Origin: a virus
Virus record (IMG/VR): IMGVR_UViG_3300032116_001185
Span: 1 to 25,664 of that record
DNA length: 25,664 nt
Reading direction: 5' to 3' (one strand)
The position numbers and the translations under genes are program-made. Numbering within the stretch: the first letter of the stretch is position 1; every line of letters begins with the position of its first letter. Below are positions 4,699 through 20,672 of the stretch, in pieces. The notes beneath the pieces were generated by a model. The model searched no databases, was not told the origin of the DNA, and saw nothing but the letters and a program-made list of their open reading frames with translations.

Positions 4699-4707
4699 TG
4701 ATATACT
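4699..4707 (+). promoter_or_regulatory. Extended -10 promoter, probably giving a leaderless mRNA
   Basis: TGATATACT overlaps the stop region of the LamG gene. The last T is 7 bases before the ATG at 4715, so transcription would begin at or next to that ATG. No -35 box and no ribosome site are visible. The ATG at 4709 lies only one base after the box and would be upstream of the expected transcript start. Confidence 0.5.
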
Positions 4708-4714
4708 TATGGTT

Positions 4715-6732: not shown

Positions 6733-6741
6733 TGCTATAAT
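6733..6741 (+). promoter_or_regulatory. Extended -10 promoter upstream of the protease gene (leaderless)
   Basis: TGCTATAAT, identical to the box at 1206. The last T is 9 bases before the ATG at 6751, so the transcript would have a leader of about 0-3 bases. TTGAGA at 6711-6716 is a possible weak -35 box, but the 19-base spacing is long. No Shine-Dalgarno lies between the box and the start. It would drive protease, scaffold and major capsid as one unit ending at the terminator at 9302. Confidence 0.6.
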
Positions 6742-12505: not shown

Positions 12506-13138
12506 ATGCCATATAGCCGTGGTACGTCAAACAACATTATCGTTGGTGCAGCAGCACTTTTCGTTGCAGATACTACCCTTACACCAGGCACACTAGAGTC
12601 TTTTGATTCCAGTGAGTCTTTTAAGGATACTCTGACAGCAGATGCAGCGTACACTAACGTAGGTTATACCATGAACGGTTTAGAATTACAATTCCAACCA
12701 GACTTCGGTGAAGTCCAGGTAGATCAAATTCTTGACGTTGCAAAACTATATAAGCAAGGTATGCAAGTTAATCTTGCTACCGCTTTTGCTGAAGCAACCC
12801 TAGAAAACTTGCTTCTTGCATTAGCATTCTCTGATGCACAACTTACAGGAAACAAGGCAGCATCTACAGGTCAGACACTTAATCTATCTGCAGGTGAACT
12901 TGGAGAATGTCCAGTAGAACGAGGAATCGTTGCTGTTGGACCAGGAACTGGAGATTGCGACAACTCTGACTCTGTTGAGCGTGTCTACACAGCATATCGT
13001 GCTCTATCAATTGAGAACGTAACTGTATCCGCAAAGCGTGACGAAGCGTCAATGTTTGAAGTTTCATTCCGTCTTCTACCAGAAGATGCGTCAGGATCAT
13101 ATGGAAAGATCGTAGATCGTACATTTGGTCAATCATAA
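12506..13138 (+). CDS. Major tail tube protein
   Basis: A 210-residue protein that stacks as hexameric rings to make the tail tube. The beta-rich sequence, the typical opening MPYSRGTSNNIIVGAAALFV, the segment GYTMNGLELQFQPDFGEVQV, and the long helix DQILDVAKLYKQGMQVNLAT match the tube-protein pattern in siphophages. It ends with a strand (EASMFEVSFRLLPEDASGSY). Two cysteines lie close together (GECPVE and GDCDNS). Ribosome site AAGAGGTGA is at ideal spacing, and codon use is richer in G and C than in the flanking tail genes, as in the capsid gene, both signs of high expression. The gene has its own promoter and is followed at once by a strong terminator, so it forms a single-gene unit. The assembly chaperones and tape measure gene follow. 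Confidence 0.88.
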   Translation: MPYSRGTSNNIIVGAAALFVADTTLTPGTLESFDSSESFKDTLTADAAYTNVGYTMNGLELQFQPDFGEVQVDQILDVAKLYKQGMQVNLATAFAEATLENLLLALAFSDAQLTGNKAASTGQTLNLSAGELGECPVERGIVAVGPGTGDCDNSDSVERVYTAYRALSIENVTVSAKRDEASMFEVSFRLLPEDASGSYGKIVDRTFGQS

Positions 13139-13162
13139 TCTAACTTTAGATTAAAACAAAGG

Positions 13163-13193
13163 CCCACCTTTTATTAGGTGGGTTTTTTGTTTT
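13163..13193 (+). terminator. Strong intrinsic terminator after the tail tube gene
   Basis: CCCACCT (13163-13169) pairs perfectly with AGGTGGG (13176-13182) around the loop TTTATT, followed by TTTTTTGTTTT. The A-rich run AAAACAAA just upstream (13153-13160) complements the T tract, so the element may also work on the opposite strand. The next promoter begins six bases beyond. Confidence 0.93.
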
Positions 13194-13198
13194 GCCTA

Positions 13199-13207
13199 TG
13201 ATAGAAT
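13199..13207 (+). promoter_or_regulatory. Extended -10 promoter for the long chaperone, probably leaderless
   Basis: TGATAGAAT matches TG-n-TATAAT with one mismatch. Its last T is 9 bases before ATG 13217, the same distance as at the protease gene. No Shine-Dalgarno and no -35 box are visible, and the upstream bases are the terminator's T tract. Read-through from upstream would be blocked by the terminator, so this box is likely the gene's main source of mRNA. Confidence 0.55.
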
Positions 13208-13216
13208 AGATAAATC

Positions 13217-13912
13217 ATGGCAACAACCGTTTATCAAAATAAAATAATAAAACTTATTGATGGCACAGAACTAGAGATTATGCCACTAAAAATAAAATAT
13301 CTACGTGAGTTTATGGAAGCATTTGAATATGTTAAAAAAGCCAAAAATGATGATGAGGCCGTAGATTATTTAATAGAATGTGTAAGAATTACAATGAAGC
13401 AATACTATCCAGAAATAATATTAACAAAATCTGATATAGAGGATAGTCTTGATATGCCAACAATATATACAATTTTAGATATTTCGGCGGGAATTAAAAT
13501 AAATGAAAAGTCAAGTCAGACAGTTAAAAACCAAGCAGAGGATAGTGGTGCCACATGGTCAGACTTGGATTTAGCAAAAATTGAGGCTGAGGTATTTCTA
13601 ATAGGTATTTGGAAAGATTACAAAGAGTTAGAAGAATCACTATCTATGCCAGAACTTATGGCAACCCTTTCTAGTCGTAGAGAACTTGACTATGAAGAAA
13701 AAAAGTTTCTTGCTGCAATTCAAGGGGTAGACTTAGATAAACAGTCTGGATCTTCAAGGGGTCAAAAAGAATGGGAAGACATGAAAGCCAGGGTATTTAG
13801 TAAAGGTAAAACAAGTGATAGTAAAGACATATTGGCTCTTCAAGGTCAAAATGCCAAGAGTGCAGGGTTTGGTATTGGCATGGGCTTAGAGTACGAAGAT
13901 TTAACAAAATAA
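13217..13912 (+). CDS. Tail assembly chaperone, long form (GT-like)
   Basis: A 231-residue protein encoded between tail tube and tape measure genes, the position of the tail assembly chaperones that coat the tape measure and recruit tube subunits. Residues 1 to about 98 are clearly homologous to the whole of the next gene product (shared MATT, LIDGT, PLKI, ECV, MKQY-PE, GIK; about two in five residues identical by eye). Residues about 108-231 are an added domain (FLIGIWKDYKELEESLSMPE, LSSRRELDYEEKKFLAAIQG) like the T part of GT fusions. The protein thus looks like GT made without a frameshift. The start follows a leaderless-type promoter with no ribosome site, suggesting low output. The end is Gly/Ser/Lys-rich, then LEYEDLTK. 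Confidence 0.85.
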   Translation: MATTVYQNKIIKLIDGTELEIMPLKIKYLREFMEAFEYVKKAKNDDEAVDYLIECVRITMKQYYPEIILTKSDIEDSLDMPTIYTILDISAGIKINEKSSQTVKNQAEDSGATWSDLDLAKIEAEVFLIGIWKDYKELEESLSMPELMATLSSRRELDYEEKKFLAAIQGVDLDKQSGSSRGQKEWEDMKARVFSKGKTSDSKDILALQGQNAKSAGFGIGMGLEYEDLTK

Positions 13913-13936
13913 TACAATAAAAAATTAGCACCTCCG

Positions 13937-13945
13937 TGCTATAAT
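13937..13945 (+). promoter_or_regulatory. Extended -10 promoter for the short chaperone
   Basis: TGCTATAAT, identical to the boxes at 1206 and 6733. It overlaps a 6-base-pair inverted repeat, TAGCAC (13926-13931) with GTGCTA (13936-13941) around CTCC. The predicted leader is about 18 bases and carries AGGAGGAA (13959-13966), close to the ideal ribosome site, ahead of ATG 13970. Confidence 0.6.
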
Positions 13946-13969
13946 TGACATAACCTATAGGAGGAAATA

Positions 13970-14299
13970 ATGGCAACAACTACGTATGAGGAAAATACTC
14001 TTACATTGATTGATGGCACAAAGGTTACAGTACGTCCTCTAAAAATCTCTCTACTTCGTCCGTTTATGAAGAAGTTTGAGGGTGTGGGAGCAGTGGCGGA
14101 AGATAACGGGAAATCTATGGACATTCTTATGGAATGTGTACAGATTGCAATGAAACAATACAAGCCAGAACTCTCTGAAGACGTAAAGAAACTAGAGGAG
14201 AATATTGATCTCCCAACTGTTTACAAGATCGTAGAAGCAGCATCAGGTATTAAACTTGCTGAAGTTTCAGACGTTCTTGGCGTAACTATGGCTGAATAA
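13970..14299 (+). CDS. Tail assembly chaperone, short form (G-like)
   Basis: A 109-residue protein homologous along nearly its full length to residues 1-98 of the preceding gene product. Both start MATT and share the LIDGT turn, PLKI, ECV, MKQY-PE and GIK motifs, so they come from a duplication. It lacks the second domain, exactly as lambda G lacks the T part of GT. It would bind the tape measure protein and keep it soluble during tail assembly. The start has AGGAGGAA and its own extended -10 promoter, indicating higher output than the long form. No slippery site joins it to the next frame: it ends TAA 22 bases before the tape measure gene. Order is long then short, the reverse of what a frameshift would imply. 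Confidence 0.85.
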   Translation: MATTTYEENTLTLIDGTKVTVRPLKISLLRPFMKKFEGVGAVAEDNGKSMDILMECVQIAMKQYKPELSEDVKKLEENIDLPTVYKIVEAASGIKLAEVSDVLGVTMAE

Positions 14300-14321: not shown

Positions 14322-17300
14322 ATGGCTGATGTTAATGCTAATATTGACATTAATATTGATTCGTCTAATGCATTAGCACAGTTAAAAGCATTACAACGTC
14401 AGATATCACAGTTTCACACCTCAATAGCCAAATCAAGTGAAGCAGCAGCCCTTGCTCAAAGAGGCTTACAGAAAAATCTTTTAAATAGTATTAACGCTAT
14501 CGGTTCATTTACTGCCGAAATGCGTACAGTTAAAACATCTGCAGAATCATTTACCGACTCATTAGAAAAAAATAAATTTTCAATGCGGGAATACTTCCGC
14601 TATGCGGGAGCATCTACAAAAACATTTGGTAGATTATTTAGGTCAGAGTTTGACACAATTGGCAAGGTAGCCGAAGAACGTGTAAAAAGACTACAAACAC
14701 AATATATTAAGATGGGCCGTGATACTAACGGTGCAATGAAAGCAATGGCTGTTATGCCAACTCAGTTGAACATGGATGATTATACAACTAGAGTTCAAAT
14801 AGCAGCACAGAAGCAGGCATTATTTAATCAATTAATGAAGCAGGGTTCCACCAATCTTTTAAATTTTGGTAAGAATACACAATGGGCTGGTCGTCAGTTA
14901 ATGGTTGGTTTTACATTACCATTGATGGCAGTAGGCACAGCAGCAACCAAAACATTTATGGACATGGAAGCACAGGCACTTAGATTTAGAAAAGTTTATG
15001 GAGACTTATTTACACCACAGGCAGAAACACAGGCAGCACTAGATAATATTACAGAATTAGGAAAGCAGTTTACAAAGTATGGCGTAGCAGTTTCTACTAC
15101 TGTTGGATTAGCAGCAGAGGCTGCAGCAGCAGGCTTCCAAGGACTAGATTTACAACGTCAAACAACAGAAGCAACACGACTTTCTATTCTTGGTCAAGTT
15201 GATAGTCAAAAAGCACTTGAAACAACTATTTCTTTACAAAATGCCTTTGGTATGTCATCTGACAGACTTGCAGATTCTATTAACTTTTTAAACGCAGTAG
15301 AAAACCAAACAGTTGTATCTCTTGATGATATCACTACTGCTATTCCAAAGGTAGCACCAGTTATTCAACAATTGGGTGGAGATGTAAAAGACTTAACATT
15401 CTTTATGGCTGCTATGAAAGAAGGCGGTATTAATGCATCAGAAGGCGCTAACGCATTAAAGTCAGGTCTTGCAGCATTAATTAATCCAACTGAAAAAGCA
15501 TCAGACATGCTTGCAAGGTTCGGTATTAATGCAACTGCAATTGTTGAAAAAAATAAAGGAAATTTAAAAGCAACAGTTGTAGAATTTGCAAATGCTTTAA
15601 ATGCTTTAGATCCACTTTCTAGAGCAAGAGCAATTGAACAAATGTTTGGTAAGTTTCAATTTGCTCGTTTGTCAACATTGTTTGCTAACGTAGCCAGAGA
15701 TGGAAACCAGGCTGCCCGTGTTCTTGATTTAGCAAATGCCTCAGTAGAAGAACTATCTGCTCTGTCTGAGCAAGAATTAGGCATGACAGCAGACTCTGCA
15801 ATGAATAAATTTAGAAAAACAGTTGAAGACTTAAAGGTTTCCCTTATACCAGTTGGCAAGGCATTTTTAGAAGCAGTAACACCAATTGTAGAATTTGTTG
15901 GAAATATATTAGAAAAATTTTCTAATCTTTCAGATGGAACTAAAAGACTTATTACTTTACTAACAGTAGGTATTGGAGCAGTAGGCCCTGTCCTTCTTAT
16001 GACATTTGGTTTGCTTGCAAACGGTATAGCAAATATCATTAAACTATTTTTAACATTACGTGGCGGGTATCAAAGATTAACTGGTCAAACACAAATACTT
16101 GGAGAGCAAACCCAGTATATGACAAGTGAGCAGTTAGATGCAGCAGCAGCAGCCCATTCTCTTAATCAAACACACGCTACACTAACTCAAACCTTTACAG
16201 CAGAAACGGCACAAATCACTAAACTTATTGCAGCATATAACTCTGCAGCAGGAGCAGCAAGAAACTTTGCAATGAATAATCCTGGAATGATGATGCCAGG
16301 AAGAGGTGCTAGAAAATTAGCAAGTGGTATTGTTTCAGTTCCTGGACCAAAAGGAGCAGGGGATATAGTTCCAGCAATGCTATCTCCAGGAGAATCAGTT
16401 ATTCCAGCAGACATGACAAAGAAATATGCTCCACTAATTCAAGGAATGATTGCAGACAATATTCCTGGATATCAAAAAGGAAGAAGTTTAGGAACAGCGG
16501 TTGATGTTCCAGGTGGAATGGATGTATCACACTTTGGAACAAAAAGTTCTAGAACTGGTGCAGAACTATTTTCAATGGTTGAAGGACTAGAAACATCCGC
16601 TGCTAGAAATATTAGAAAAATGGTTGCGTCTTTTGAAAATGGATTAACTAGAGTATTCACAACTTTTGACAATCAGGTGGTTGCACAGTTTACTGAAATA
16701 AATAGATTAATGCAAACACAAGGAAAAGCAAGCACACAAAAAGTTAAACAAAATTTAGTTGGTGCAGGATTTGCTGAAACACGAGACATAGAGTTACAAA
16801 GACAATTAGTACAGTCTGGAACATCTATTGATGAATTTAAATTAATAAATAAACAAATAACAGATGAAATTATTATAGGTTTTGATGCTTTAGGAGATAA
16901 AACAGAAATTACCTCTGAAGAACTAAATAATCTTTTAAGAAAGGCTTATGAAGAAGTAGCAAAAACAGATGCTCGTGTTGAAAAAGCATACAACAACATG
17001 AAGCAGGTCTCAAGTGTCTTTAGTCCAGATAGAGCAGGAGTTAGAGGATCAAGAATTCCAATAACAGAAGAATCTTATATCAAACAAAAAAAGAGTACGC
17101 AAAGAACTCCAAGTCAATATAGAAAAATGCAAGGGCAGATGGTTGGTGCTGAAAACATTCCATATGCACAATCTAGTAGATTTGTTGTTACAAATAGTAT
17201 TGCTAAAGAATTAGACCTCAGCAGTAAACAAGCAGCAGATATATATAACAAGATGTCTGCAGATGCTAAAGTAACTTTGTCAAGAATGAGAAATGACCTT

Positions 17301-20300
17301 ACAGCATTTAAAAAAGAATTTATTATAGAAGCAGCCAAAGTTGGAGAGATGGTTGGTACATCAGCAGTTAACGCAACTGCCAAGGCAGCAGGAACTGCAT
17401 CAGCATCAAGAAAAACAAGAAGAATTGGCGAAGATGTTGGTCGTGGTCTTGAAGAAGGAATGAAGAGCAGGCAAGACGACGTTGCTTTAGTTGGATCTCA
17501 ATTAGGAAATGCTGCAATAGGTGGAGTTAAAGGCGCAGTCCCACCAGTTACATTTCAATCAGCAGGACAACCAGGATTCGTAGCAGCAAATGCACCAAAA
17601 CCAGGTGTTCCAATGTCTGTTTTAAATGCAGCGTATGAAGAAGATGCTATGAGAGATTTAATGAAAAAACAACAACAAAAAATAGCAATTACTAATCAAA
17701 GAATGAATTCATTAAATAAAGCATTTATGAGTGGCACATTTGCACTATCTGCTTTATCTGGTGTTGCTTCAATGGCTGGCGGAAACCTAGGAAAATTCTC
17801 TCAAATAATATTTACTTTAACTGGTCCATTATTTGCTTTATCGTCAATACTTCAATTGCTAACTGGATCAAAAATATTACAAATTATTTCAAATTTTGGT
17901 AAACTTAAATTTGGACTTATTTCTGTTGGCATAACCGCACTAGTTACTGGATTTTCAATGTATAGAAAATCACAAGAAGAAACAAGAAGAAAACTTTTAT
18001 CATTTAAAGATGCATTAACAATAACCGAAAAACAAGCAAAAGCCACTGCTGATTATTTTGGAGTTGTTCGTAAAAAGGGTGCTTTAGAAACTGGCTCTAG
18101 AGCAACTGCAGCAACAGCAAAGACTCCAAATTTTAGAGATAAGGTTAATCAGTTTATAGATTCTGACGAGTTTAAGAATAATTATGAAAGTAGTATAAAA
18201 AGTTTAAGTGAACAAACAGACAATGCAGCAAGAACAGCATTATTTATTAGAGCACAAGAATTATTGGCTACAGGTTATTCTGAAGAACAAATAAATATTA
18301 TTATTTCAGCACTTCAGCAACAAGCAGGAAAGCAAAATTTAAATTTATTATTTAAAGATATCAAAATTGACGCTTTGAATAAAAATATTATGGATGGCCT
18401 AAAAGAACAATTGGCTGATTTAGGAAAATTTGCTGAAAGTAAAAGGTTTAGAAAAATAATTACAGAAGTGTTTAATCCCGACACTCAAAAATTTGATCAA
18501 ATTATATCAGTTGTTCCATTAAAAGGTTTTCAGACAGCAGTTGACAATGTTGCAGCAGGAATTAATTCATTTTTAAAGAGTGTTACATTATTAAGAGAAA
18601 ATGGAAAAATAAGTGTACAAGACGTAGAAAAATCATATAACTCATTAATGTATACAATTAATACCAGCACACCAGATTCACGAGTTAAAATTGCTTTATT
18701 AAATAGCGCATTAAAAGACTTAAAAGATCCTGTTGCAATTGCAGCAATGCAAACTGAAAATTTAGCCAAAAAGACAAAATTATTAGAGGCTGCAATGTTT
18801 GGTGCAATAATTCCTGTAGAGTTACTTAATGAATATTTAAGAACAGATAGTGGAAACCCCAACCTATATGCTTCAGGACAAACAGAAGCAAGAATAAATG
18901 CTTTAATTGAGGCTGCTAAAAAATCAACAAAGGCAGTTTATGACGCAGTAAAGGCTAGCGAAGCAGCAGCCGCTGCTGATGGAAAAACAAATCCATTAAA
19001 AGAAAGAATTAAAGCAATTCAAAATCAAACTAAGGCATATATTATATTACGTAATGCAAAAGTTGATGAGGCAACTGCAACAGAATTAGCAAATGATGCA
19101 GAAATAGCATCTCTTGTTATTGCAAATAGTAAAGGTAAATCGTTAACACAAATTATTGCATTAATTAACGAATATAAAGCAGCAATCAAGGGACAAACTG
19201 ATGCTGAATTAAAATATATGGAAAAGCCAAATTTGTTTAAAAAGCAATTGGAGCAGTATCAAGCACAGGCAGAACTTAGAGAAAAATTAATTGATGTTCA
19301 GTTTGCATCAAGAATAAAGGCAGAAAATGATGCTTTAAAGGTTCAAGAACAAAATTTGCAAAACGTAAATAATGAAATTCAAAAAATTACAGATTCTCAA
19401 ATTAAACCAATTCAGGCTGTTATTGATGCAAATAACTTTGCTCTTGAATCAATATCTTTACAAGAAGATGCAATTAATGAAAAATATAATACACAAATAG
19501 AATCTTTAGATAAAATTGCAACCCTTAATCAAAATATTGCAAATATTCAAAAACAAAGACTTTCTATTGCTGATGCACTTACTCGTGGAGATATATCTGC
19601 TGCTGCACAACTTGCTCAAGAAGCAAGAGCAGAAAATGCAGCCTCTGCTGTAACTGGACAAAAAGAGGCTTTAACTATTACTCGTGATGCTCAAATAAAA
19701 GCACTTGGAAGAGTTGAAATTGAAAAGCAAAATAAAAAACTTCAATTAGAAATTAATACAATTGAAAGAGGATCATTACTAACCTTACAACAAAAGAAAG
19801 ACACAATTGAAAGCACTATTGATTCAATTAATAGAAACATTCAAGCATTAAATTCTCAAGTTGATGCATTAAAAAATGGCGCTTACTATGCTGGACAAAC
19901 CAGAACAGAGATAGATAGTCTTGCTGGACTTATTGATGCAGCAGAAAAAGCAGGCATTCCATTTAGCAATCAACTTTTAAGTCAAGCAGGATCTGCTGCA
20001 GCACTTGCAAAATCACTTTCAGATGCTGTTACCGCTCAAAAGTCTTTAGCCTCATTATCAGGTCTTGTGTCTGGAGCAGGACCTGGCACAGGAACTGGCA
20101 CAGGAACTGGCACAGTCACTGGTACAGGTGCGGGATCAACCGTCACTGTAAAGTCTGGTAATACATTAAGTGGAATTGCAAAGGCAGCAGGAGTTAGCCT
20201 TTCAGATGTAATTAAAGCCAATCCACAAATTACTAATCCTAATTTAATTAAACCAGGACAAATAATTAAAATACCAGGAAAAATGTATGGTGGCAAAATT

Positions 20301-20672
20301 AAGTCAATGAACATGGGTGGAATGGTTCCTAAATACCTTGCTCGTGGTGGTGGTATAGGTTCTGATACCGTGCCAGCAATGCTTACTCCTGGAGAGTTTG
20401 TAATGAATAGAAGAGCAACTGAGCAATTTGGTCCATTGCTATCAATGTTAAACGAGTCAAAATATCCATCAATGATTGGTAACAGGGTTGGTGCACAAGT
20501 TCCAGTTAATAATGTTTCAACATCTATGAGCGATAACTCAACGGCAGTGTATAATTATAACTTAGGCTTTAATATTAGTGGAACTAACTCAAATCCAAAT
20601 GATATTGCTAGAGCAGTAATGAGAGAAATTAAAAATGTTGACTCACAAAGAATTAGGGGGCAAAGAGTATAA
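14322..20672 (+). CDS. Tape measure protein with C-terminal LysM domain
   Basis: A 2116-residue tape measure protein that fixes tail length and is ejected with the DNA. It begins with a coiled-coil region. A TP901-type domain lies around residues 180-480, with TQWAGRQLMVGFTLPLMAVG and SLQNAFGMSSDRLADSINFL. Hydrophobic segments are at about 541-578 and 1132-1219, possible membrane-crossing parts. Long Ala/Gln/Lys helices follow, including a heptad-like stretch near 1660-1860. Near the C-terminus, a Gly-Thr linker leads to a LysM module at about 1942-1987 (VTVKSGNTLSGIAKAAGVSL to IIKIPG), a peptidoglycan-binding fold. The motif VPAMLxPGE occurs twice, at residues 683 and 2017. ATG 14322 has AGAGGTG upstream. 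The stop overlaps the next start by one base. At about 0.15 nm per residue, the tail could approach 300 nm. Confidence 0.95.
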   Translation: MADVNANIDINIDSSNALAQLKALQRQISQFHTSIAKSSEAAALAQRGLQKNLLNSINAIGSFTAEMRTVKTSAESFTDSLEKNKFSMREYFRYAGASTKTFGRLFRSEFDTIGKVAEERVKRLQTQYIKMGRDTNGAMKAMAVMPTQLNMDDYTTRVQIAAQKQALFNQLMKQGSTNLLNFGKNTQWAGRQLMVGFTLPLMAVGTAATKTFMDMEAQALRFRKVYGDLFTPQAETQAALDNITELGKQFTKYGVAVSTTVGLAAEAAAAGFQGLDLQRQTTEATRLSILGQVDSQKALETTISLQNAFGMSSDRLADSINFLNAVENQTVVSLDDITTAIPKVAPVIQQLGGDVKDLTFFMAAMKEGGINASEGANALKSGLAALINPTEKASDMLARFGINATAIVEKNKGNLKATVVEFANALNALDPLSRARAIEQMFGKFQFARLSTLFANVARDGNQAARVLDLANASVEELSALSEQELGMTADSAMNKFRKTVEDLKVSLIPVGKAFLEAVTPIVEFVGNILEKFSNLSDGTKRLITLLTVGIGAVGPVLLMTFGLLANGIANIIKLFLTLRGGYQRLTGQTQILGEQTQYMTSEQLDAAAAAHSLNQTHATLTQTFTAETAQITKLIAAYNSAAGAARNFAMNNPGMMMPGRGARKLASGIVSVPGPKGAGDIVPAMLSPGESVIPADMTKKYAPLIQGMIADNIPGYQKGRSLGTAVDVPGGMDVSHFGTKSSRTGAELFSMVEGLETSAARNIRKMVASFENGLTRVFTTFDNQVVAQFTEINRLMQTQGKASTQKVKQNLVGAGFAETRDIELQRQLVQSGTSIDEFKLINKQITDEIIIGFDALGDKTEITSEELNNLLRKAYEEVAKTDARVEKAYNNMKQVSSVFSPDRAGVRGSRIPITEESYIKQKKSTQRTPSQYRKMQGQMVGAENIPYAQSSRFVVTNSIAKELDLSSKQAADIYNKMSADAKVTLSRMRNDLTAFKKEFIIEAAKVGEMVGTSAVNATAKAAGTASASRKTRRIGEDVGRGLEEGMKSRQDDVALVGSQLGNAAIGGVKGAVPPVTFQSAGQPGFVAANAPKPGVPMSVLNAAYEEDAMRDLMKKQQQKIAITNQRMNSLNKAFMSGTFALSALSGVASMAGGNLGKFSQIIFTLTGPLFALSSILQLLTGSKILQIISNFGKLKFGLISVGITALVTGFSMYRKSQEETRRKLLSFKDALTITEKQAKATADYFGVVRKKGALETGSRATAATAKTPNFRDKVNQFIDSDEFKNNYESSIKSLSEQTDNAARTALFIRAQELLATGYSEEQINIIISALQQQAGKQNLNLLFKDIKIDALNKNIMDGLKEQLADLGKFAESKRFRKIITEVFNPDTQKFDQIISVVPLKGFQTAVDNVAAGINSFLKSVTLLRENGKISVQDVEKSYNSLMYTINTSTPDSRVKIALLNSALKDLKDPVAIAAMQTENLAKKTKLLEAAMFGAIIPVELLNEYLRTDSGNPNLYASGQTEARINALIEAAKKSTKAVYDAVKASEAAAAADGKTNPLKERIKAIQNQTKAYIILRNAKVDEATATELANDAEIASLVIANSKGKSLTQIIALINEYKAAIKGQTDAELKYMEKPNLFKKQLEQYQAQAELREKLIDVQFASRIKAENDALKVQEQNLQNVNNEIQKITDSQIKPIQAVIDANNFALESISLQEDAINEKYNTQIESLDKIATLNQNIANIQKQRLSIADALTRGDISAAAQLAQEARAENAASAVTGQKEALTITRDAQIKALGRVEIEKQNKKLQLEINTIERGSLLTLQQKKDTIESTIDSINRNIQALNSQVDALKNGAYYAGQTRTEIDSLAGLIDAAEKAGIPFSNQLLSQAGSAAALAKSLSDAVTAQKSLASLSGLVSGAGPGTGTGTGTGTVTGTGAGSTVTVKSGNTLSGIAKAAGVSLSDVIKANPQITNPNLIKPGQIIKIPGKMYGGKIKSMNMGGMVPKYLARGGGIGSDTVPAMLTPGEFVMNRRATEQFGPLLSMLNESKYPSMIGNRVGAQVPVNNVSTSMSDNSTAVYNYNLGFNISGTNSNPNDIARAVMREIKNVDSQRIRGQRV
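20083..20118 (+). repeat. Tandem GT-coding repeat before the LysM domain
   Basis: About two and a half copies of a 12-base unit (ACTGGCACAGGA or close variants) encode a Gly-Thr-Gly-Thr linker in the tape measure protein. It forms a flexible spacer between the long helical part and the LysM module. The repeat could expand or contract by slippage. Confidence 0.75.

Follow-up and report, generated by a model that had tools for sequence, protein, structure and literature searches.

The -1 frameshift that yields the G and GT tail assembly chaperones from one gene is a classic case of recoding retained to hold a protein ratio, and in phage lambda a 30:1 ratio of gpG to gpGT is needed (PMC5009743). 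An IMG/VR virus contig of 25,664 bases (the window, meaning the whole stretch of DNA analyzed) raises the question of how such a pair is made where two adjacent genes take the place of a single frameshifted one. The initial annotation of the window, made from the letters alone, proposed that a gene duplication had replaced recoding, with the short and long products mirroring G and GT. This proposal was supported by the existence of frameshifting relatives, by a single change on a phylogenetic tree, and by slippery heptamers that occurred at chance level.

Gene content of the locus

The long and short genes were flanked by the major tail protein gene on the 5' side and by the tape measure gene on the 3' side (Table 1), which is the place expected of a G/GT set. 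The product of the upstream neighbor showed a weak match to PHROG 885 (major tail protein; E 0.015), and the position of this gene equals that of the annotated major tail protein of the Stanwilliamsviridae.

Table 1. Features of the chaperone locus, in window coordinates.
Feature	Coordinates	Strand	Remarks
Major tail protein gene	12506..13138	+	Upstream neighbor; PHROG 2175 (protein with Ig domain), E 4.1e-34
Terminator-like hairpin and T-run	13152..13194	+	3' of the major tail protein gene; RNA fold -22.1 kcal/mol, then TTTTTTG
Extended -10 promoter-like element TGATAGAAT	13199..13207	+	Long gene; 9 nt before ATG
Long tail assembly chaperone gene (putative)	13217..13912	+	231 aa; matches to PHROG 10504 and PHROG 10474; two-frame Streptomyces phage homologues
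T-like domain, fused in frame	13538..13909	+	Identity to T of frameshift phages
Extended -10 promoter-like element TGCTATAAT	13937..13945	+	Short gene
Shine-Dalgarno AGGAGG	13959..13964	+	Short gene
Short tail assembly chaperone gene (putative), G paralog	13970..14299	+	109 aa; PHROG 10504, E 1.9e-21
Tape measure protein gene	14322..20672	+	Downstream neighbor; 2116 residues; PHROG 10030, E 1.7e-101

Paralogy and domain composition

The two open reading frames were exactly those described initially, as adjacent genes for paralogs of 231 and 109 residues, and a BLASTP alignment of the proteins confirmed their paralogy over 100 amino acids with 45% identity and 69% similarity (E = 4e-29). The short form had been said to match the first 98 residues of the long form, where a second domain would begin. 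In agreement with this, the homology within the long protein stopped near residue 99-100 and was followed by a linker and a second domain, such that a G-like domain spans residues 1 to about 100 and a T-like domain about residues 107-231. Both proteins matched PHROG 10504 (at residues 1-104 of the long protein), while PHROG 10474 was matched by the second half of the long protein only (residues 131-222, E 1.3e-14). That this second half has a PHROG family of its own provided the first hint of a separate reading frame elsewhere. In a family-wide test, the PHROG 10504 and 10474 profiles were matched by all 80 long members, and PHROG 10504 was matched by all 76 members of the alignment of short and G proteins, a few of which also matched PHROG 1932 and PHROG 344 (tail assembly chaperone).

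The T-like domain of the window shared 45-49% identity with the -1-frame T of the Streptomyces phages Coruscant and BillNye, and 56-61% identity with the T of its nearest frameshift relatives, L190 and L380. Over most of its length, the long protein was about 38-44% identical to the products of Streptomyces phage genes recognized as tail assembly chaperones. These phages share both domains, which ties the long gene to a G/GT family by homology; a lack of such homology would have spoken against the initial reading.

Searches of Pfam and of PDB sequences with the window pair gave no useful match, and none above the Pfam cut-off. Structure models were compared using Foldseek: the long model had no significant match in the PDB, and the best PDB hit for the short model, the HK97 tail assembly chaperone 2ob9, was not significant (E 1.1, TM 0.46). 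Against a viral structure library, the matches of the long model included tail assembly chaperones (E 2e-3 and 0.05). The position of the genes, the annotated frameshift homologues, and these viral-library matches support a chaperone role. The two genes probably encode a tail assembly chaperone set for a long-tailed phage, where the short product would be G-like and the long product a GT-like in-frame fusion, both having the N-terminal domain in common and the long one carrying the additional C-terminal domain. By analogy with lambda (PMC5009743), both would contact the tape measure protein, and the T part would contact the tail tube protein.

Architectures among relatives

A search for relatives with a frameshifted gene or with two genes recovered both classes and nothing intermediate. 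In INPHARED, the sole relatives were 127 Streptomyces phage records, each with a single matching place, and those with a taxonomy belonged to the Stanwilliamsviridae. The seven examined had the same neighboring genes, with G and then a -1-frame T between them, and the record of phage Yaboi annotates the two reading frames as a joined frameshift chaperone gene. Elsewhere in the public Stanwilliamsviridae records (L158, L159, L162, and L164; for example Samisti12, Karimac, and Coruscant), the chaperone was often entered as two unlinked genes or hypothetical proteins, despite a T in the -1 frame.

The family was abundant in IMG/VR, where each search matched hundreds of stretches, and the counts given here are lower bounds. 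Profiles of both domains were scored on at least 404 loci. A fused GT followed by a separate G was found in at least 311 of these (213 distinct at the DNA level), repeating the gene order and spacing of the window pair, and one G gene with T in a different frame was found in at least 83 (61 distinct). In each of the 311 intact two-gene loci, G and T were in the same frame, with no programmed frameshift for the long form, in contrast to the 83 relatives. Each of the 76 frameshift loci that were checked first had T in the -1 frame, as did the nearest relatives added afterwards. None of the 404 loci was intermediate, and no locus combined a frameshift with a second G. Loci with only a fused gene, only T, or only G were considered as intermediates and rejected, as all of them, the first five and the later additions alike, were interrupted by contig ends.

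An in-frame slippery CCCAAAC, CCCAAAT, or GGGAAAC was present at the overlap of G and T in 45 of the 61 distinct frameshift G genes, and the nearest frameshift relatives of the two-gene clade carried GGGAAAC. Among the remaining genes of this class, the sites examined carried CCCGGAA; it is the site found in members of the Boydwoodruffvirinae and differs from the canonical heptamer. In the two-gene loci this signal was lost: at the junction of the long gene (residues 88-118), 19 slippery heptamers were seen while 19.1 +/- 2.6 were expected from synonymous shuffling. Similarly, a conserved slippery site giving GT from the short gene, which would have contradicted the initial annotation, was sought and not found; the short gene ends only 22 nt before the tape measure gene.

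Several individual loci deviated from the general pattern. In L042 and L120, which lie on one contig, the short gene was split over two frames, reflecting either an assembly error or a broken copy. About 720 extra bases separated the long and short genes in L014, L025, L027, L028, L030, and L057. The insert was a complete SAM-dependent methyltransferase gene in L014 (Pfam Methyltransf_25, E 8e-16) and L025, and that of L028 was identical to the insert of L025; a third chaperone or a homing gene was therefore rejected as its identity. The methyltransferase gene lies within a very compact tail gene cluster, and the long and short genes on either side of it were both intact. Additionally, the only match in a search of genome contigs was a locus of the frameshift type, L323, on a contig of a metagenome bin labeled as a cyanobacterium. 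This label failed as a host assignment, and the origin and host of L323 are uncertain.

Phylogeny of the two classes

A marker tree for 58 representatives, including 32 two-gene rows, combined the major tail protein with residues 1-600 of the tape measure protein. All 32 fell on one side of a single branch with a support of 100/99, which was recovered in 100% of 200 bootstrap trees, and the same split was obtained when closer frameshift relatives were added. The division between the classes, which the initial annotation had suggested mapping on a tape-measure tree, thus corresponds to a single change. With midpoint rooting, the two-gene class appeared as a tip clade within a grade of frameshift lineages.

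The G-domain tree placed the long-G sequences in one group and the short-G sequences in another. The short-G group joined the nearest frameshift G and had shorter branches, and the long-G group was borne on a long stem. In a tree of the G genes only, long-G fell outside the group of short-G and near frameshift G, while a clade of long-G and short-G was not rejected (AU p 0.28). The long stem fits a faster change of the long copy, and the placement could also reflect an older duplication followed by loss. The T-domain tree was poorly resolved.

Signals of separate initiation

Expression signals were analyzed in 125 non-redundant two-gene loci, where the extended -10 pattern TGnTAnnnT was counted against a shuffled expectation. 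For the long gene, an extended -10 element was present in 122 of the 125 loci (18.6 expected), and in 120 it ended 5-9 nt before the start codon. A Shine-Dalgarno match of at least 5 nt was found for the long gene in none of the 125, and its message is apparently leaderless. The short gene had an extended -10 element in every locus (125 of 125, with 9.1 expected), mostly 23-30 nt upstream of the start, and a Shine-Dalgarno match of at least 5 nt in 114. The separate promoters proposed initially are borne out to the extent that promoter-like sites 5' of both genes were kept far above the shuffled expectation. The frameshift relatives resembled the short gene, in that 36 of 43 had an extended -10 element at leadered spacing and 41 of 43 had a Shine-Dalgarno match of at least 5 nt. 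Among the other reading frames of the same loci, taken as a control, the leaderless type of element occurred in 2.3% and the leadered type in 8.6%.

The long genes started with ATG in 305 of 307 cases, a preference expected if the message starts at the start codon, and the frameshift G genes often used TTG or GTG. Additionally, 98 of 124 non-redundant loci had a hairpin with a T-run 5' of the long gene. The codon usage of the short gene was nearer to that of the capsid and tail tube genes of the same phage in 117 of 125 loci (P 6e-21).

Given the conserved separate signals of the two genes, the G:GT ratio is probably set at initiation, and the initiation signals together with codon usage suggest that the short form is in excess. 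Leaderless messages of mycobacteria may be transcribed less efficiently (PMC7148126). In these bacteria, a 5'-terminal ATG or GTG suffices for leaderless translation, and such translation can equal the leadered mode in robustness (PMC4633059), for which reason the scarcity of the long form is stated here as a presumption.

The genes at 4709 and 6751 also have extended -10 elements (window positions 4699-4707 and 6733-6741), located 1-9 nt 5' of their ATG, and other structural genes of this phage may have leaderless messages.

Origin of the chaperone pair

The explanation we favor, and consider highly probable, is that the pair derives from an ancestral -1 frameshift gene by duplication of G and in-frame fusion of GT, with the ratio of the products now most likely set at initiation. 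The ancestor would have obtained both forms from a single gene through a -1 frameshift. A duplication of the G segment would then have taken place in one lineage, and the upstream copy would have been fused in frame to T with the loss of the slippery site; this direction of change, as well as the order of duplication and fusion, is what the data suggest. The long gene would be served by one promoter giving an apparently leaderless message, and the short gene by its own extended -10 promoter and a strong Shine-Dalgarno sequence, plus possible read-through from the long promoter. The presumed excess of the short over the long form would now most likely be fixed at initiation. A more specific version, which we regard as evenly balanced, holds that siphophages here lost programmed frameshifting in one traceable event, in which duplication, fusion, and a new leaderless promoter shifted G:GT control to initiation, and the G domains, freed from identity, specialized, where the short one remained ancestral and the long one diverged as a dedicated initiator subunit.

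Other readings of the pair were weighed against this explanation. The least probable is that the proteins are no tail chaperones but have some other structural or regulatory role, and that their genes precede the tape measure gene by chance: the window proteins had no match in Pfam and no significant one in the PDB, which would be consistent with it, but the frameshifted homologues at the same place are annotated as tail assembly chaperones, and both the position and the structural matches in the viral library point to the same role. Recoding might also be hidden within the long gene, for example as an early-ending -1 slip at the junction that yields extra short form. Such a slip is known in principle from dnaX, and A-rich heptamers do occur at the junction in a few loci; their chance-level frequency and the lack of one conserved site across residues 88-118 make this very improbable.

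A further possibility is that the fused long protein does everything, the short gene having diverged into a remnant that no longer acts as a chaperone; annotations with only one chaperone gene exist for some phages (PMC10885494). This seems hardly credible for a gene that has shorter branches than long-G, retains its promoter in all 125 loci and its Shine-Dalgarno match in 114, and was kept in every locus with enough sequence, with an interrupted copy in one contig (L042/L120). Less remote, while still unlikely, is an old two-gene state of a true chaperone set, from which the frameshift arose in the relatives through loss of the separate G gene. The position of long-G outside short-G and the nearest frameshift G in the gene tree would suit this history, and the marker tree was rooted only at its midpoint. 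Against it, the two-gene class forms one tip clade among several frameshift lineages under that rooting, the same -1 arrangement would have to be gained in several lineages, and G-T frameshifting is widely conserved in long-tailed phages (PMC5009743). Duplication and fusion from a frameshifting ancestor thus remains the preferred reading.

Comparison with known systems

The closest known counterparts are the Stanwilliamsviridae (Streptomyces phages Yaboi, BillNye, Samisti12, and Coruscant), in which homologous G and T domains occupy the same place. They differ in having one G gene with a -1-frame T and a slippery site, no second G, and a GT made by frameshift, as annotated in Yaboi. The lambda gpG and gpGT are similar in that a short and a long form have a common N-terminal domain and are encoded between the tail tube and tape measure genes. 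However, lambda uses one gene with a -1 frameshift, and its N-terminal domains are necessarily identical, in contrast to the 45% identity within the window pair. Since the two forms of the window have no common coding sequence, conserved differences between them should reveal which surfaces of the G domain are important in the abundant and in the rare form.

The initial annotation could not say whether such an arrangement had been described for other phages. PMC10885494, citing Vladimirov, Gautam and Davidson 2022, reports that some T4-like phages encode their chaperones by a short gene and a longer, fused one without a frameshift, as in the window pair, and the two-gene architecture is therefore known in kind. 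The T4-like system belongs to another phage group and probably to another protein family. We infer that the genes meant are T4 gp26 and gp51, which were found to be adjacent, on opposite strands, and related, both matching PF12322 (pairwise E 2e-6), while the window proteins match no Pfam family above the cut-off. The window pair, in contrast, is in tandem and has frameshift sister lineages that make the change traceable. Similarly, in several subclusters of Microbacterium phage cluster EA, the chaperone reading frames are apparently expressed separately with no evident frameshift; they are described as two reading frames only, with no statement of a fused duplicate (PMC7302621).

The window type is accordingly an independent, traceable variant and not a new category. 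As far as the literature examined shows, what is new is its independent occurrence across a large, mostly uncultured clade, and the tracing of one change beside relatives in which frameshifting persists, together with initiation signals that are separate and conserved. A whole clade appears here to have abandoned a classic recoding event, and the survival of close relatives that frameshift makes it testable by direct comparison why recoding is kept and what replaces it. Annotation pipelines should look for pairs of a fused long gene and a short gene where a slippery site is missing.

Other features of the window

Residues 1932-1991 of the tape measure protein (window about 20115-20294) matched endolysin PHROGs (E 7.7e-10), and this C-terminal segment resembles a LysM-type peptidoglycan-binding repeat. 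At the other end of the window, a reading frame that is open at the contig start (3-1196) presumably encodes a ribonucleotide reductase, as it contains an NPCAEQPL motif. It lies directly 5' of a gene for a 1154-residue protein, which is followed by the portal gene.
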